Assembly (NCBI GenBank): GCA_040221055.1
Contig: JAVJVN010000018.1
Coordinates: 62,001-126,000, forward strand
Source of the DNA: Rhodothermales bacterium
GTDB taxonomy: Bacteria > Bacteroidota > Rhodothermia > Rhodothermales > UBA10348
Direction of reading: 5' to 3'
Length of the DNA stretch: 64,000 bases
The notes under the pieces are model-generated. The model saw only the letters and a list, made by a program, of their open reading frames with translations, did not search any database and was not told where the DNA came from. Below, one piece after another: positions 31,085-41,393 of the stretch (the first letter of the stretch is position 1; every line of letters begins with the position of its first letter). The position numbers and the translations under genes are program-made.

Positions 31085-32065
31085 CGATTGCTGATCCTGT
31101 TCCTCTTTCTTTTCGTGGTGCCGCAAGCCGCGCGGGCACAGGTGGAATCGTCAGCCTACCCGGTGGTCCAGCTGGACGCATCGGCCCGCTCGGCGGCCCT
31201 GGGAGGCAACGCTCCGGCGTTGGTCGATGTTGGGCCCGGAAGCATCTTTTCCAACCCCGCCCTGGTCACGCCCGACATGCATGGTGCAGCGGAGCTGTCG
31301 TACCTGAATCATGTTTCGGACCTTTCCGCCGGCTGGTTGAGCTACGCCCGGAACGTGGAAGGAATCGGAACGGCGGCCGTCGGACTCCGGTACCTCTCGT
31401 TTGGTGAAATGGACCGGTTGGACGCATCCGGCAATGCCGACGGCACGTTCGGTGCATCGGACCTGGGGCTCACGGTGGCCCTGTCGCGTCCGCTGGCCCT
31501 CGTCGGCGCCCCGTGGATGAGCCGGATCCGGTACGGCGGGGCCCTGTCGTGGCTGAATCAGCGGATTGATACCGAAGGTGCCCAGGCGCTTACCATGGAC
31601 CTGGGCGCGGTCTATCACGACGCCGAGCGCCGGTTCACGGCGGGTATGGTGGTGCAGCACCTCGGATTGCGCCTGTCCTCCCTGGGCAGTCGTGCCGATC
31701 GGCTGCCGACGGACGTGCGGGTGGGTCTGGCGAAACGCCTGAATCATCTCCCTGTACTGTTCTCGGTAACGGCCTACCGGCTGCACGCCTTGGATGGAGG
31801 ACCCGACGGTGCGTCGGTCCTGGCTCATGCCCTGTACCATGCCGTGCTGGCTGCGGAATTCCAGTTCTCAGAGAGTTTCCGGCTCCGCTTCGGCTACAAC
31901 CACCGCCGTCATGATGAGCTCAAGGTCAAGGCCAGGCTGGATTTCGCGGGGGTATCGACCGGCGTCGGCATCAAAATCCGCAATGTGGGCGTGGACTACG
32001 CGTACAATTCCTGGTCCAGCCTGGGCGGATTGCATCGGATTTCGGTCAAGACGGCCCTGTTTTAG
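31082..32065 (+). CDS. porQ: Type IX secretion system protein PorQ
   Basis: A 327-residue outer-membrane beta-barrel protein of the PorV/PorQ family. The signal peptide ends AARAQ near residue 20. The family signature after it is LDASARSAALGGNAPALVD followed by SIFSNPALVT. The rest is a series of amphipathic strands ending in aromatic RISVKTALF, as in FadL-like barrels. PorQ takes part in T9SS cargo handling with PorU/PorV/PorZ, none of which is here. The position directly after a T9SS cargo gene supports the call. Translation may be limited by the hairpin at 31017-31084. Confidence 0.85.
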   Translation: MRLLILFLFLFVVPQAARAQVESSAYPVVQLDASARSAALGGNAPALVDVGPGSIFSNPALVTPDMHGAAELSYLNHVSDLSAGWLSYARNVEGIGTAAVGLRYLSFGEMDRLDASGNADGTFGASDLGLTVALSRPLALVGAPWMSRIRYGGALSWLNQRIDTEGAQALTMDLGAVYHDAERRFTAGMVVQHLGLRLSSLGSRADRLPTDVRVGLAKRLNHLPVLFSVTAYRLHALDGGPDGASVLAHALYHAVLAAEFQFSESFRLRFGYNHRRHDELKVKARLDFAGVSTGVGIKIRNVGVDYAYNSWSSLGGLHRISVKTALF

Positions 32066-32089
32066 AAGGCTGTTGCACAGATCGCCACG

Positions 32090-32809
32090 TCACGGCTCGC
32101 TCGGCAGCCCCTTCGTGGCCTCCATGTACGTAATCCGCGCCATGGCATCACCGTTTTCCTGCACGAATCGCGCCACGTTGTGCGGGGCGGCCTTGGCGTA
32201 GTCCCGCAGGGCCCAGCCGATCGCTTTCCGGATGAACGGATCCGTATCGCCCAGACATGCCCGGCAATACCGGAACAGGCGGGCTTCGTCCGTATCCGTC
32301 CGGTGCATGACCTGACTGATGATGGCGGACCGGCGGATCCAGCGGTTCTCATCCTCGATCCAGTCATCCAGCAGGGTCGAAACCACGTCCCGCTCATGCC
32401 GGAGCACGGAACCTACAAGCCGGATGGCCACATCATCCACGAAATCCCACCAGGCTCCGTCCCGGATGAGGAATTCGTACAGCGGCAGGGCCTCACTGGT
32501 AATGAAGAGCCGGAACGTACGCGCAAATTGGACGGCCAGATATTTTTCTTCCCGGTGCGTCTGCGACCACAGCAACCGGACCAGGTCCTCGTACTCCGCA
32601 TGTGATGAGGGACGGAAATGCCATTTGACGGCACGGGCAATATGCTCCCGGCCCGGCTTCTGCACCCCATGGAACGGCATGGTCGTTTTCATGTATCGCG
32701 CCATCTGCTCCGCCTTTTCCGGGTCGGCAGCGGCGGCCAGTTCACGACGCACGAAACGGAGTACGTCCTCTGGCGAGTACATGTGGGGAATGTCGATCGG
32801 TCCGGGCAT
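32090..32809 (-). CDS. DNA alkylation repair protein, AlkD-like
   Basis: A 239-residue HEAT-like-repeat protein of the AlkD/AlkC DNA glycosylase family, which removes alkylated purines without base flipping. Visible family features are MKTTMPFHGVQKPGRE at the N-terminus, HREEKYLAVQFARTF, WWDFVDDVAIRLVG (the conserved Trp/Asp segment) and FIRKAIGWALRDYAKAAP. The length is the family norm. It is 11 bp from the recombinase gene on the same strand and converges with porQ. Confidence 0.92.
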   Translation of the reverse strand: MPGPIDIPHMYSPEDVLRFVRRELAAAADPEKAEQMARYMKTTMPFHGVQKPGREHIARAVKWHFRPSSHAEYEDLVRLLWSQTHREEKYLAVQFARTFRLFITSEALPLYEFLIRDGAWWDFVDDVAIRLVGSVLRHERDVVSTLLDDWIEDENRWIRRSAIISQVMHRTDTDEARLFRYCRACLGDTDPFIRKAIGWALRDYAKAAPHNVARFVQENGDAMARITYMEATKGLPSEP

Positions 32810-32820
32810 TTCGGGGTTTT

Positions 32821-33729
32821 TTACGTCGTGGGTACGGACTGGCGGCGCCAGTAGATCATGGTGGTCTCCATGGTGCCGTGCCGCATGCGTCGCTTCACGT
32901 CATCCACGGACATGCCATCGTTGAGCCACAACAGCGCGGCCGTGTGCGTCAGACTGTGGGGCGTAATGCCCGGTCGTTTGATGCCAGCACTGTTCAGGTG
33001 CACATTGATGCGGCTGCGCACGGACCGGGTGTTCAACCGGCTACCGTCACTTCGGTGCCCGTGCGACACGAACAACGGATCCTCGGGGCGGATGCGACGC
33101 CGCGTATCGAGATACAGACGGATGGCATCCATGACGGGTGGGTCGATGGGCACCTGTTGATCCTTGGCCTTGTGACCCTTTCCCTGGATGCGCAGATACC
33201 ATCCCATGAGGGTCTGTTCCAGGTCCTGGACATCGGCACGGATGATCTCTATTTCACTCAAACCTGCGTACAGCATCATATGGACGATGGCCCTGTCCCG
33301 CTTGTCGATCTCGGTCTCGACCGGGATGGAGGACAACAGGGTCTGGACGTCCTCCCCGGTCAGCATTTCCCGCGTATGGACATCGGGACGCCGGTTTCCT
33401 TTCACGGCCTTGGCCGGATTCACCTCCAATTTGCCGATATCAACCAGATATTGGCAAAAACGCCGAACGGCTGTGAGATACGTGGACACCGACACCTGAT
33501 GCAGTTCGCGTTCCTTCATCAAGTACGTCTTGTACGCTTCCACGTCCTCCGTGCAGAAGGTACAGGAAACACCGGGAGATGCAAACCACCGCTCGAATTC
33601 GTTGAGCGAACGGCGATACGTACCGATGGTCTCCGGGCTCTTGCCTACCAGGTAATTCCTCAGGAAGTCCTGGAGGTGGTTTTCAAGGGCGGAAGGCGAC
33701 AGCTCCAACCCGGGTTCAACGTGTGACAT
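32821..33729 (-). CDS. Tyrosine recombinase-like protein lacking both catalytic arginines
   Basis: A 302-residue protein with the two-domain plan of XerC/D-type recombinases: SAM-like core-binding domain (about 12-110) and catalytic domain (about 120-300). The nucleophile is kept as Y293 (TTMIYW), the histidine H284 (MRHGTM), the lysine K184 (IQGKGHK) and the first H258 of the HxxR box. However, the box reads HSLTHT, so Arg is Thr261, and the first arginine expected in GLR-x-SE is Ser158 (YAGLSEIEII). Without these two residues normal cleavage is not expected. The start at 33729 is preferred over an ATG 11 codons upstream. No att-like repeats or mobile genes flank it. Confidence 0.85.
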   Translation of the reverse strand: MSHVEPGLELSPSALENHLQDFLRNYLVGKSPETIGTYRRSLNEFERWFASPGVSCTFCTEDVEAYKTYLMKERELHQVSVSTYLTAVRRFCQYLVDIGKLEVNPAKAVKGNRRPDVHTREMLTGEDVQTLLSSIPVETEIDKRDRAIVHMMLYAGLSEIEIIRADVQDLEQTLMGWYLRIQGKGHKAKDQQVPIDPPVMDAIRLYLDTRRRIRPEDPLFVSHGHRSDGSRLNTRSVRSRINVHLNSAGIKRPGITPHSLTHTAALLWLNDGMSVDDVKRRMRHGTMETTMIYWRRQSVPTT

Positions 33730-33798
33730 GGGGACGTTTCGTGCATTCTGACGGCACCCCAATCAAGCAATCCGGGCGGACTTTGTCAATAACGGAAA

Positions 33799-35511
33799 TC
33801 AGATTTCGGTGTTCGGGTCCAGTCCTTCGAGCACATCGGTGTACTTGCGGAGGAACGATGATCCCATGGCTCCGTCCACAATCCGGTGGTCGTAGGAGAG
33901 CGAAACAATCATCATGTGACGCACCGCAATGATGTCTCCGAGATCCGGATCCTCCACGACGACCGGGCGCTTCTTGATGGCCCCGATGGCCAGGATACCA
34001 ACCTGCGGCTGATTGATGATGGGGGTCCCCATGATGGAGCCCAGGGATCCCACGTTGGTCACGGTGAACGTGCCACCCGAGAGCTGATCCGGCATGAGCT
34101 GCTTGTTGCGCGCCCGCTCGGCCAGGTCGGCCGTGGCCAGGGCCAGGCCGACGACGTTGCGCTGGCCCGCATCCCGGATGACCGGAGCCACGAGACCGGT
34201 CTTGCCGATGGCGACCGCAATGCCAATGTGGAAATCCTTTTTCAGGTGGATGGTGTCCCCAACTACCGAACTGTTCAGGATGGGATGCTCACGGAGCGCT
34301 TCGACCGCAGCATGCACAAAAAACGGAGTATACGTCAGTTTGACGCCTTCCCGCTTCTCGAACGCGGCTTTGTTGCGCTCGCGCAAACGGACCAGATTGG
34401 TTACATCGATTTCCGCGAACGACGTGACGTGGGCACTCGTAGCCTTCGATCGCACCATGTGTTCGGCAATGATTTGCCGCATGCGATCCATTTTGACGAT
34501 CTCGACCCGACCGTCCGCGCTCGGGGTCGAGGCCGGCGCCGAGGGCTGGCGCGGGGTCTGGGCTGGCGATGCGGAGGGTTTGGCCGCCTCGGCCTGCTTC
34601 GGAGCGGATCCCCGACCCGACACGTACGCCAGTACATCTTCCTTGGTGACCCGGCCGTCCCGCCCGGATCCCTTGATGGAACCCAATTCGTCGGCCGATA
34701 CGCCCTCTGTCTCCGCAATGGAGCGAACCAGGGGGGAATAGAATTGCCCATCCGGCCCGGTCCGGGGAATGGGTCCGGTCTCGCCGGCGGGAGCCGACGC
34801 CTCCGACCGGGCTCCCTTCTGGTCCTCGGATTCCGGTTTGGCTTCCTTCTTGTCCTCGGATTCCGGTTTCGATGGCTCTTTTTCGTCGGATTCGGCCGGG
34901 GCGTCTGACCCGATGACGGCAATCAACGTGCCCACATCCACCGTGTCGCCTTCCGGCACCAGGATTTCCTGGACAATGCCGGCGGCCGGTGACGGAACCT
35001 CGGTATCCACCTTGTCGGTCGCGATTTCCAGGAGCGTTTCGTCCAGTTCAATGCTGTCCCCCACGCTCTTTGCCCATGAAATGACGGTGCCTTCCATGAT
35101 GCTCTCGCCCATCTTGGGCATGAGCACCTCGGTCCGCGACCCACCATTCCCGGGCGTCGGTGCCGATTTCGGAGCCGGGGCGGGCTCCGGTTCGGGCTCC
35201 GGCGCGGCTTGCTGCTCCGGCTCCGGTTCGGGCTCGGGTTCCGGCTCGGCTGACGCCGTCGCGGCGTCTCCGTCCGTGTCCACCACGGCAATGACCGTCC
35301 CCACATCCACCGTATCACCCGCCTCCACCAGGATCTCCACAAGCACACCCTCGGCCGGAGACGGCACCTCGGTATCGACCTTGTCGGTACCGATTTCCAG
35401 CAGCGGCTCATCCATTTCAATGGCGTCGCCAGGCTGCTTGAGCCATTCGATTACCGTGCCTTCCGTGATGCTTTCGCCCATCTTGGGCATTCTCACTTCA
35501 ACCTTGGACAT
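33799..35511 (-). CDS. Dihydrolipoamide acyltransferase (E2), two lipoyl domains
   Basis: A 570-residue E2 subunit. Two lipoyl domains carry lysines K44 and K167, both in [12 protein letters not shown]. They are joined by a Glu-Pro-rich linker (about 88-120) and followed by an acidic Lys/Glu linker, then the subunit-binding domain ([20 protein letters not shown], about 255-300). The catalytic domain ends with [17 protein letters not shown], holding the active-site His and Asp. It fits branched-chain or pyruvate/2-oxoglutarate E2; the E1 at 10411 is a plausible partner. No E3 gene is in the window. Confidence 0.94.
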
Positions 35512-35591
35512 GAATGTGGAGCAGGTTTGATTTCATTCGACTCCTTAACGCGGCATCGAACAGAAAGGTCTGTACGGGTCGGGATGCGGGA

Positions 35592-37676
35592 TCAGGCAAT
35601 CAGCGGCGCAATGACCAGGGCCACGACCGCAATCAGCTTGATCAGGATGTTCAGGCTCGGACCCGACGTATCCTTCAGCGGATCACCCACGGTATCGCCG
35701 ACAACAGCGGCCTTGTGGGCATCGGAGCCCTTGCCATGGACCACGCCGTCAATCGTCATCTTCGATTCGATCATCTTCTTGGCATTGTCCCAGGCACCAC
35801 CGGCATTCGACTGGAAGATGGCGAAGAGCACGCCAGAGACCGTCACGCCAGCCAAAAGACCACCCAACATGCTCTTGTCGATGAATCCGATGGCAACCGG
35901 TACGATGACGGCCAGGAGGCCCGGAGCCACCATTTCCCGGATGGCAGCCTTCGTGGAGATTTCCACGCAACGCTCGTGATCCGGCTTGGCGGTACCCTCA
36001 CGCAGACCGGGGATCTCGGCGAACTGACGTCCTACCTCCTTGATCATGTCGCCGGCCGCACGACCGACCGCCCCCATGGCCATGGCTGAGAATACATACG
36101 GCAGCATGGCACCCAGGAGCAGTCCGGCCAGGATGGTCGGGTTGGCCACGTCAATGTTGGGTACGCCGGCCTGCTGCATGAATGCGGCGAACAGACCCAA
36201 CGCCGTCAGCGCGGCAGAGCCGATGGCAAATCCCTTGCCGATGGCGGCGGTCGTATTGCCCACCGCATCCAGCTTGTCGGTGCGCTCGCGGACTTCCGCC
36301 GGGAGATGCGCCATTTCGGCAATACCGCCGGCGTTGTCGGAAATCGGACCGTAGGCGTCGACCGCCAACTGGATGCCCGTCACGGAAAGCATGCCGACGG
36401 CGGCAATGGCAATGCCGTAGAGACCGGCAAACTCATAGGCACCGATAATGCTGAGCGCGAGAACCACGGCCGGCAGTCCCGTCGAATACATGCCCACACC
36501 GAGCCCGGAAATGATGTTGGTGGCCGATCCCGTGACCGACTGCCGCGCTATACCCATGACCGGGCCCTTGCCCGTCGCCGTGTAGTATTCCGTGATGAGA
36601 CCGATCAGCGTACCGGCAGCCAGACCGATGAGGACGGCCCAGTACACGCCCAGTGACGTGAATGTGGCACCACCCACGACCCATTCGGCCGGCATCATGC
36701 TGTTGATGATGAAGTACGACAGGATGGCCATGAGACCAGCCGCGCCGAATTCACCGATGTTCAAGCCGTGCTGCGGGTTGCCGCCTTCCTTCACCCTCAC
36801 GAAGAACGATCCGGCAATCGAGACGAGGATTCCGACCGCAGCAAGCGCCAGGGGAAGCACGACCGCGCTGAGCGGTCCGAGGACTGACCCTTCAAACGCC
36901 GGCAGGGCCATGAAGGCCGTACCCAGCACCATGGTACCAATGATGGATCCCACGTAGGATTCGAACAGGTCGGCGCCCATACCGGCTACGTCGCCCACAT
37001 TGTCACCCACGTTGTCCGCAATGGTGGCGGGGTTGCGCGGGTCATCCTCGGGGATGCCTTCGTAGACCTTGCCGGCCAGGTCGGCGCCAACATCTGCGGC
37101 TTTCGTGTAGATGCCGCCGCCGACACGGGCAAACAGGGCGATGGACGATGCGCCGAGCGAAAAGCCGGAAATCACACTGACCACCTTCATGGGCGTCCAG
37201 TCCAGGCCGCTGTAGATGACGAACAACCCGCCCAGACCCAACAGGCCGAGTCCGACGACGCTGAGCCCCATGACGAGCCCACCGGAGAACGCCACATTCA
37301 AGGCGGGTGCGAGGCCCGTTCGGGCGGCCTGTGTCGTACGGACGTTGGCCTTGGTGGCCACGTTCATCCCGATGAATCCGGCCAGGGCACTACAGAACGC
37401 GCCCACGATGAACGACAGGGCAATCATCCAGGAGGATCCCTCCTGATTCATGTTGGCGAACGCCAACAGAACGGCGACAACTGCGACGAAAACCACCAGG
37501 ACGCGGTACTCCTGGCGCAGAAACGCCCGTGCACCTTCGGCAATGGACTTGGCCAGATCCGCCATCTCCGGCGTGCCTACATCCTGCTTCGTGACCCACC
37601 GGGTACGCGTGTACGCGTAGAGCAGCGCGAGGACGCCGGCAACCGGGACCAGGTAGGTAATTGTGGTGTAATCCAT
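35592..37676 (-). CDS. hppA: Membrane-bound ion-translocating pyrophosphatase
   Basis: A 694-residue protein with about 16 membrane helices that couples pyrophosphate hydrolysis to cation export. The substrate loop reads [21 protein letters not shown] followed by [21 protein letters not shown]477 and G480 in [10 protein letters not shown] match the signature of potassium-dependent enzymes (potassium-independent ones have Lys/Thr). E239 in DLFESY is compatible with sodium- or proton-pumping types, so the ion is not settled. The start at 37676 ([14 protein letters not shown]) removes a 20-residue upstream extension. Lies 80 bp downstream of nothing else on its strand; the 120-bp gap to pth has no clear terminator. 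Confidence 0.95.
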
Positions 37677-40217: not shown

Positions 40218-41393
40218 TCACCGGCTCTTTCCCATCACCTCGAGCAAGCGGTCCACCGGCAGCGCCTGTGCCGTACCCCGATCTCCCGTTACCGATGTGG
40301 CCATGAACAGGGAATTCAGGATGGCTTCCTCGGTGGCTTCCACCACGGCCTGGAAAAGCGGCGAAACCCGATCGTTGGGCAATTCCGTGATTGGCATGGG
40401 CGCATTCCGTCGCTCGGGTGTCCGCCGGACATCGGGATGCGTGGAAAACGCCACTGCATAGTCTCCGGATCCATTGGTAGCCGGTGAGCCCGTGCGGGCC
40501 AGACCGAAGAACGCGCGACGCGCGAGCCGTTCCAGGTTCCGGTCCGACAGGGGCGCATCGGTGGCCACGACGATGACAATCGATCCGTCGGCGTCTCCCC
40601 GGTCCAGCGCGGATTTCAGGTAATACTGACCGAGGGCCTCGCCCGCCCGGAACCCATCAACCATCAGAACCCCTCCGTAATTCGACTGCACGAGCACGCC
40701 GACCGTGTACCCCCCGAGCGATTCCGGCAATTGCCGTGAGCTGGTCCCGATACCGCCTTTCCAACCGAACGCCACCGTCCCCGTGCCCGCCCCGACCGAG
40801 CCTTCGGCCACGGGTCCGCTGCGCGCCGTCCGGATGGCGTCCACCACGTGGTGGGCCCGGACGTGCCGACCGCGGATGTCATTCAGGAATCCATCATTGG
40901 TCTCCCCCACCACGGCATTCACCGATCGGGCCTCCTCGTTTCCTTCCTGGGCAAGGGTCCAATCAATAACCCCCTCCATGCCCTGCGGCACGGAAAGCGT
41001 GTTCGTCAGGACGATGGGTGTCTCGATTTCCCCCAACTCCAGGATCTGGCTGCTCCCGGCGAATTTCCCGAAGGCATTGGCGGCCACGTATCCCGCGGGC
41101 ACCTTGTCCCGGTAGATGTTGCCGCCGTGCGGCAGGATGGCCGTCACGCCCGTCCGGACGGACGTTTCCTCGACCAGCGTGACGTGGCCCACGCGGACGT
41201 CAGCGACATCGGTGATGGCGTTCAACGGGCCCGTCGGAAGGATGCCCGGACGGATGCCCGCATCACGGACCCGGATGGGACCGTCCTGGGCATTGGCAAT
41301 CGGGACCATCCCCGGCATTCCGGCAAGAAGGGCAACGAAAAGCGTGGCACGCACCAGGGGCAGGACGGAACAATTCAGCATGGAGTGACCCAT
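40218..41393 (-). CDS. P1 family (DmpA-type) peptidase, exported
   Basis: A protein of about 390 residues of MEROPS S58/P1, related to L-aminopeptidase/D-esterase DmpA. A signal peptide precedes IANAQDGP. The self-cleavage and nucleophile region is WKGGIGTSSRQL, and the family segment GPLNAITDVADVRVGHVTL is near the N-terminus of the mature protein. Members process themselves into two chains and cleave N-terminal residues, some with D-amino-acid specificity. An ATG at 41381 is an equally possible start. The ORF is open further upstream but would overlap the divergent racemase gene. Confidence 0.9.
   Translation of the reverse strand: MGHSMLNCSVLPLVRATLFVALLAGMPGMVPIANAQDGPIRVRDAGIRPGILPTGPLNAITDVADVRVGHVTLVEETSVRTGVTAILPHGGNIYRDKVPAGYVAANAFGKFAGSSQILELGEIETPIVLTNTLSVPQGMEGVIDWTLAQEGNEEARSVNAVVGETNDGFLNDIRGRHVRAHHVVDAIRTARSGPVAEGSVGAGTGTVAFGWKGGIGTSSRQLPESLGGYTVGVLVQSNYGGVLMVDGFRAGEALGQYYLKSALDRGDADGSIVIVVATDAPLSDRNLERLARRAFFGLARTGSPATNGSGDYAVAFSTHPDVRRTPERRNAPMPITELPNDRVSPLFQAVVEATEEAILNSLFMATSVTGDRGTAQALPVDRLLEVMGKSR

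Follow-up and report, generated by a model that had tools for sequence, protein, structure and literature searches.

The locus and its gene

The window analyzed here is the whole stretch of 64,000 nucleotides of bacterial DNA, to which all positions below refer. It contains an intact minus-strand frame running from 33729 to 32821, whose product is 302 aa long. An earlier, sequence-only reading had called the frame intact without giving a strand; it is indeed intact, and its strand is minus. The features of the locus are the following:

32821..33729, minus strand: tyrosine-recombinase-fold gene lacking Arg I (Ser158) and Arg II (Thr261), from the reading frame, Pfam and alignments
33799..35511, minus strand: sucB-type E2 of 2-oxoglutarate dehydrogenase, the upstream neighbor, from locus comparison
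32090..32809, minus strand: DNA alkylation repair (HEAT-like) protein, the downstream neighbor, from locus comparison
33784..33797, minus strand: element TTCCGTTATTGACA, from an alignment of upstream regions
33761..33789, minus strand: putative promoter-like pair overlapping the element, with TTGACA at 33789-33784, a gap of 17 nt and TTGATT at 33766-33761

By fold, the 302-aa protein belongs to the tyrosine recombinase superfamily, with both an N-terminal SAM-like core-binding domain (PF02899, E=1.5e-12) and the catalytic domain (PF00589, E=2.9e-19, residues 122-296) matched over cut-off. The XerC, XerD and XerA models are matched far below their equivalog cut-offs, as illustrated by the NCBIfam scores for XerC (120.7 bits vs a cut-off of 335.15) and XerD (118.8 vs 329.6). 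Five Phage_integrase proteins are encoded in this genome in all, another of which is an integron integrase that scores over its cut-off.

The gene lies among housekeeping genes. Those checked around it encode ribose-phosphate pyrophosphokinase, L25, peptidyl-tRNA hydrolase, a membrane pyrophosphatase, the sucB-type E2, the HEAT-like protein and secA, and for these genes the earlier statement that nothing mobile lies nearby holds. Given such neighbors, and with no match at 60% identity or above in the plasmid and phage collections, we rejected the possibility of a mobile-element integrase or its remnant. When 48 loci were compared (a set that includes a few repeat fetches and loci cut by contig ends), the E2 gene was found upstream, often adjacent, in 32, and often together with pyrophosphatase and pth genes. 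The HEAT-like neighbor was refound among the 48 loci at E 1e-8 only in a locus of the same genus (L140) and is thus not a conserved partner. Outside the class, the neighbors, which were named by eye only, differ. Across the loci compared, with those outside the order judged by eye, we detect no conserved functional partner beyond lineage-specific genes, and a search of positions 32000-36000 returned no RNA family at E 0.1.

Loss of the catalytic arginines

The active site of tyrosine recombinases comprises Arg I, Lys, His, Arg II, His or Trp, and Tyr. The 302-aa protein keeps four of these residues and lacks both arginines. Alignments with XerD (1a0p) and XerA and with 82 control recombinases bear out the residue numbering of the sequence-only reading: Ser158 occupies the Arg I position and Thr261 the Arg II position, while K184, H258, H284 and Y293 fall at the remaining catalytic positions. 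The controls, which were aligned alongside the family, comprise 30 B-type, 30 C-type, 8 XerC and 14 XerD sequences. The B and C types are Xer-like families with catalytic residues that occur side by side in some genomes of the order; in one locus (L035:1084-3107), a C-type recombinase stands just before an ORF that, judging by motif, we take to resemble miaA.

When family f3 is set aside, the order contributes 60 distinct proteins, and all of them lack both arginines, whereas both are present in 82/82 controls in the same alignment. Because of this separation, the replacement, as judged from these alignments, is not a matter of chance or sequencing error. In the same 60 proteins, position 158 is Ser in 56, Ala in 2, Thr in 1 and Gly in 1, while position 261 is Thr in every one. 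These homologs thus show the conserved Ser/Thr at the two positions that the earlier reading had proposed to look for. The Lys and the first His are retained in 60/60, the second His in 59/59 readable sequences, and the Tyr position, cut off in one protein, reads Tyr in 54, Ser in 4 and His in 1.

In family f3 (14 proteins; L106, L107 and L110-L121), no sequence has Arg I or either His, and Arg II and Tyr are each present in only 2. The active site of this branch is nearly all gone, while the reading frame, selection and predicted fold stay; the upstream element described below is missing in the same branch. The two proteins of family f21 carry Thr and Val at the two arginine positions.

Outside the class, we divided the sequences into 12 "Chlorobi-side" rows and 21 others, these labels being our own. 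Among the Chlorobi-side rows, in which L073 (Thermochlorobacteriaceae) and L236 are one protein counted twice and one row is broken, the Arg I position is Ser in 7, Arg in 4 and Thr in 1, and the Arg II position is Arg in 8, Gln in 3 and unreadable in one. The other 21 rows all lack Arg I (0/21) and nearly all keep Arg II (20/21) and Tyr (21/21); the first His is replaced by Phe in 15, and the second His by Ile (16) or Leu (5). Every readable member of the family therefore lacks at least one catalytic arginine, with the sole exception of L238 (G460:C39), in which all six catalytic residues are present. Close relatives of this sequence (L240, L267 and L268) keep Arg I and have Gln at Arg II. 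Arg I was thus either regained or lost several times.

Conservation, selection and predicted fold

In a protein search of 27 genomes from the same family, 24 of the 26 others proved to have an ortholog, at 66-77% identity and over the full length or close to it. In a profile search of the class (244 genomes, threshold E 1e-40), 106 genomes were matched, always by a single copy. They comprise 104 of the order's 114 genomes and both genomes of f21, while families f16-f20 yielded, by subtraction, no match among 128 genomes at this threshold. The ten genomes of the order with no match at E 1e-40 have completeness values of 56-96%. In a sample of 394 genomes across the phylum, 79 were matched at E 1e-42, of which 33 lie outside the class. 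Named carriers include Roseithermus, Salinibacter and Salinivenus, and as Roseithermus belongs to Rhodothermales, we take the order to be Rhodothermales.

The ratio dN/dS could be computed for 17 of 21 pairs (the other four are saturated), with values between 0.05 and 0.37, 13 of the 17 being at or below 0.2; frames were taken stop to stop, which raised some of these values. Five pairs from f3 give 0.12-0.28. On the basis of this purifying selection, we rejected a pseudogene reading, and together with the single copy across the order, it argues against decay, in line with the earlier remark that this is not an obvious decayed gene.

An AlphaFold2 model of P0001, built from a 24-row alignment (pLDDT 83.9, pTM 0.60), matches XerH (5jjv_A) with Z 20.3 and rmsd 3.3 over 286 aligned residues, and thus has a predicted Xer fold. 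A model of the f3 type (pLDDT 86.5, pTM 0.64) matches XerA (5hxy_C; Z 19.9, rmsd 12.6, 265 aligned) and XerH (5jjv_A; Z 18.3, rmsd 5.7, 287 aligned). The proteins are basic, with a median pI of 9.73 for the family (8.9 for P0001), compared with 9.70 for the B type and XerC and 6.29 for XerD; because the B type and XerC are equally basic, this charge does not discriminate.

Ancestry and plasmid relatives

A maximum-likelihood tree of 92 rows recovers the family as one clade (bootstrap/SH-aLRT 100/98), and likewise the Rhodothermia members (100/98) and f3 (98/99). Our trees place the family in a clade separate from XerC/XerD. Mapped on the 92-row tree, presence or absence of Arg I requires at least 2 changes, that of Arg II 5 and that of Tyr 4.

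The best match in the plasmid and phage collections is WP_012477141 from the Streptococcus thermophilus plasmid pSMQ-316 (37% identity over 90%, E=1e-39). At E 1e-20 or better, 32 plasmid records are matched, while the eight phage rows listed have 30% identity or less. We examined the residues of 11 of the 32 plasmid relatives (L312-L322), and all six catalytic residues are present in 11/11, in a similar motif context (GLRTIE/QGKG/HSLRHT/RH..TTMIY). Ten of the 11 are typed as non-mobilizable and one (L318) as mobilizable, and several adjoin genes for ParA, a DnaB-like helicase or a small helix-turn-helix protein. Their role is perhaps plasmid multimer resolution. Neither these plasmid genes nor the window gene are preceded by a shared inverted repeat, although two plasmid loci have one each.

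The small tyrosine recombinases of plasmids thus resemble the window protein in motif context and provide its best match in the collections, but they differ in keeping all six catalytic residues, in their plasmid location and in the absence of a full-score upstream element. A quick tree put the family and the plasmid relatives on one side of a branch, whereas the careful 92-row tree did not; the plasmid relatives are thus a candidate sister group, and a plasmid origin is probable at best.

A conserved element upstream of the gene

The element TTCCGTTATTGACA occupies the stretch 55-68 nt ahead of the start codon ATG, and a single base separates it from the stop codon of the E2 gene. No second exact copy of this 14-mer exists elsewhere in the window or in the 3.3-Mb genome. 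Once f3 is excluded, the order provides 59 distinct upstream regions (those shorter than 250 nt dropped), and 56 of them carry the CCGTTAT core of the element on the gene's strand, vs 10/514 background windows. This enrichment is post hoc, having been found by looking, and it rests on related regions whose counts are not independent. One of the 56 core-bearing regions has a reverse copy besides. Two same-strand copies are present in 15/59 regions, with a spacing of 43-44 nt in 7, 54-55 nt in 2, 64 nt in 2 and 86 nt in 1; spacings of 16, 19 and 27 nt also occur.

When regions of at least 200 nt were scored against TTCYGTTATTG, 39/59 from the order outside f3 reached 10 or 11 of 11; in a background of 1093 windows, 1% did so. 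Of the 21 other relatives from outside the class, 4 score 10 or more (L245, L246, L248 and L259), and in the first three of these relatives a similar TAATTTCTGTTATTG stands before the gene. The TTCYGTTATTG element is absent from the upstream regions of f3 (0/14), f21 (0/2) and the Chlorobi-side rows (0/12). Among the 11 plasmid genes, L318 has the highest-scoring upstream match on the gene's strand (10 of 11), and the other ten reach 8 or less.

Exact copies of CCGTTATTGACA are found in 79/268 loci, once each (repeat fetches included), and 78 of the 79 are on the gene's strand within 300 nt upstream. The one not upstream (L144, genome G020) is located about 2.6 kb beyond the gene; in G020, the gene is instead preceded by a copy of the 14-mer with one mismatch (L021). 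Of the order's 114 genomes, 36 contain exact TCCGTTATTGACA, each of them once, compared with 5 hits for a reversed control. By coordinates, 29 of these 36 lie within 300 nt upstream of the gene, and 7 lie elsewhere (G165, G171, G191, G207, G209, G237 and G242). The element also stays with the gene where the upstream neighbor is not E2 (L129, L134 and L136).

In its own genome, the element gives 13 hits with up to 2 mismatches, whereas its reversed control gives 3. Apart from the element itself there are 12 such hits, of which 11 fall inside mechanical open frames, and we found no convincing second promoter at this mismatch level that would suggest a wider regulon. The remaining two-mismatch copy, TTCCGTTATATACA (L278, G000:C16:16245-16258), is the only one in this genome between such frames. 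Another two-mismatch copy, TTCCGTGATTGGCA, lies on the plus strand of the window at 40383-40396, inside a long minus-strand frame (L280), and is probably due to chance.

A consensus promoter scan of positions 32700-34000 found none. Among 87 site occurrences (repeat fetches included), the hexamer 17 nt after TTGACA is TTGATT in 40 and TATTAT in 1.

Possible roles of the protein and its element

We consider it probable, although far from certain, that the product is a non-cleaving, DNA-binding recombinase-fold protein that likely regulates itself and resembles MrpR in its manner of working. The individual parts of this reading differ in strength. At the level of sequence, the loss of recombination is well supported. 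The family, the residue losses, the conservation, the predicted fold, the selection, and the element and where it lies are observed, while a plasmid origin, non-cleavage, DNA binding, the element as target and regulation (of itself) as the role are inferred. Cre carrying R173A or R292A retains occupancy and synapsis of loxP sites but does not proceed to recombination (PMC4381057), which predicts that a protein having lost both arginines would bind without cleavage. MrpR, a recombinase-fold repressor with Arg and His replaced and Lys and Tyr kept, was found to bind a 15-bp motif and not to recombine DNA (PMC10516654). Together, the Cre mutants and MrpR favor a DNA-binding protein that would set its own promoter via the element. 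The sequence-only reading had offered binding without recombination or a changed chemistry as alternatives; the former is the better supported, with the binding itself a likely rather than an observed property.

In the scenario that we envisage, an Xer-like tyrosine recombinase, probably of the small-plasmid kind, would have been captured by the chromosome early in the phylum. Its chemistry may then have been lost stepwise, with Arg I going first and Arg II following in the Rhodothermia lineage, and some branches would later have lost Tyr and the rest of the active site. As the core-binding and catalytic domains are kept, the protein has most likely retained the ability to clamp onto a specific DNA site while being unable to cleave there. 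The best candidate for this site is TTCCGTTATTG(ACA) at the promoter of the gene itself; by binding to it, at times through two same-strand copies, the protein would control its own transcription.

Several observations stand against a regulator. Outside f3, conservation of K184, both His and mostly Tyr exceeds what a pure DNA binder strictly needs, although Lys and Tyr are retained in MrpR as well. It would be unusual for a regulator to act on nothing but its own gene, and a wider regulon is not seen in its own genome. The element is not present in f3, f21 or the Chlorobi-side rows, and the family includes L238 with six catalytic residues and three more sequences with Arg I but Gln at Arg II.

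Alternatively, the protein could be a non-cleaving DNA binder with its real role elsewhere, for example in chromosome structure, and the element only a conserved promoter read by another factor, which we regard as unlikely but quite conceivable. TTGACA with a hexamer 17 nt on fits a promoter, the core is on the gene's strand in every one of the 56 regions bearing it, and there is no genome-wide set of exact copies. However, a bare promoter would leave unexplained the CCGTTAT part, the rarity of the element in the genome and the second same-strand copies (15/59). Also against this reading are the similar TAATTTCTGTTATTG before the gene in L245, L246 and L248, all outside the class, and the consensus scan of this region of the window, which came back empty. 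It is improbable, in turn, that the protein is a catalytically dead partner, or a part of a dif-like system, standing in for the XerC/XerD that the order is missing. In its favor, 0/114 genomes of the order exceed the XerD cut-off (best 193.3 vs 329.6 bits) compared with 119/244 in the class, and a unique site beside a xer-like gene recalls difSL/XerS and difH/XerH (PMC9765430). Single-recombinase Xer systems have their dif site at the terminus, whereas in three single-contig genomes, the gene and element lie 29-37% of the chromosome away from it by coarse GC skew (about 5.9, 7.3 and 6.6 twentieths in G191, G194 and G175, respectively, the skew of G175 being irregular). The skew was computed from 20 samples of 12 kb per genome in these three genomes, each distinct from that of the window. 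Furthermore, Tyr is gone in several lineages, and possible active partners are patchy: the B type (P0002) is found in 42/114 genomes at E 1e-35 and the C type (P0003) in 62/114 at E 1e-30, and G157 and G231 have neither. The two f21 genomes each carry two XerC/XerD-type proteins in addition to the recombinase-fold protein. We therefore disfavor an XerC/XerD replacement or a dif-like site.

That the protein is an active recombinase of altered chemistry seems to us very improbable; other arginines would have to take over from Arg I and Arg II, in the way that a single downstream Arg does for the CTnDOT integrase. Conservation of the Lys, both His and Tyr in most members outside f3 is what such an enzyme would show, one relative (L238) keeps all six residues, and the IntCTnDOT subgroup offers a known case in which Arg I is lost and another residue substitutes for it (PMC8138268). 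Here, however, two arginines would need replacing. The plasmid relatives have Arg at the R164 position in 11/11 and at R283 in 8/11 beside intact catalytic arginines, and because of this, R164 and R283 look ancestral rather than compensatory, while R281 is kept in 13/14 f3 proteins that have no active site. From the alignments with the plasmid relatives and f3, we rejected R164, R281 and R283 as likely substitutes. The changed chemistry proposed earlier also finds no support in the non-f3 members that have lost Tyr (Ser in 4 and His in 1 of 59), nor in f3, where both His are gone and Tyr survives in 2/14, yet purifying selection and the predicted fold are kept; whole branches would thus have to manage without Tyr or both His. 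A decaying relic with no function could also lose its catalytic residues step by step, as the family did, and f3 most completely. To such a relic we give hardly any credence, given one copy in 104/114 genomes, dN/dS at or below 0.2 in 13/17 computed pairs, a predicted fold that is kept and a conserved upstream element.

Returning to the non-cleaving DNA binder, a broader version of its history is doubtful in our estimation but worth stating. A plasmid multimer-resolution recombinase would have been domesticated before several classes of the phylum split and would have given up recombination. It may now be a core chromosomal DNA-binding protein, with its own level set via a private element, and may serve the whole chromosome in synapsis, architecture or regulation now that the order has lost canonical XerC and XerD.

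DNA-binding-only recombinase-fold proteins have been described from phages and mobile elements, and in the family here such a protein seems to be part of the core chromosomal gene set of an entire order of bacteria. Its sequence record points to a stepwise dismantling of the active site, with plasmid relatives that have an intact site available for comparison, and the candidate binding site upstream is directly testable.

Comparison with known recombinase-fold proteins

In the open-access literature searched, we found no description of the family. The closest parallels in working are MrpR/YopR from the B. subtilis prophage SPbeta and SroF from phage phi3T, which likewise have the recombinase fold; MrpR has also lost catalytic residues. 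Unlike these prophage repressors, the protein described here is encoded by a chromosomal single-copy gene of a whole order and is nearer in sequence to Xer and plasmid recombinases. The P0001 model matches 8a0a_A (Z 13.6, rmsd 17.5, 256 aligned), 8bpz (Z 14.1, rmsd 17.1, 255 aligned) and 9rd5_H (Z 16.3, rmsd 5.6, 265 aligned); these Z values are lower than those to Xer and Cre structures, and the rmsd to MrpR/YopR is large, while SroF is known to us from PDB titles.

With XerC, XerD, XerA and XerH, the window protein shares the two-domain Xer architecture and the fold. It differs in scoring far below the XerC/XerD equivalog cut-offs, in lacking the catalytic arginines and in its gene, which by coarse GC skew in the three genomes is not at the terminus. 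Tfp, from strand-biased circularizing elements, and GinC, from GInts, are likewise described as having the recombinase fold but not the catalytic RHRY residues (PMC10214605). As judged from their descriptions, these are set apart by belonging to mobile-element operons beside active recombinases, and Tfp is larger. IntCTnDOT is similar in that Arg I is absent in some members, but there (PMC8138268) a downstream Arg substitutes functionally, the integrase is active, and there is an extra arm-binding domain. The window protein, in contrast, lacks both arginines, and its 302 aa match in Pfam only the core-binding and catalytic domains. Finally, a PDB chain named ribosome-associated translation inhibitor RaiA (9i5v_14) gives an Xer-like recombinase match over residues 5-280, and is either an odd fusion or an odd annotation.
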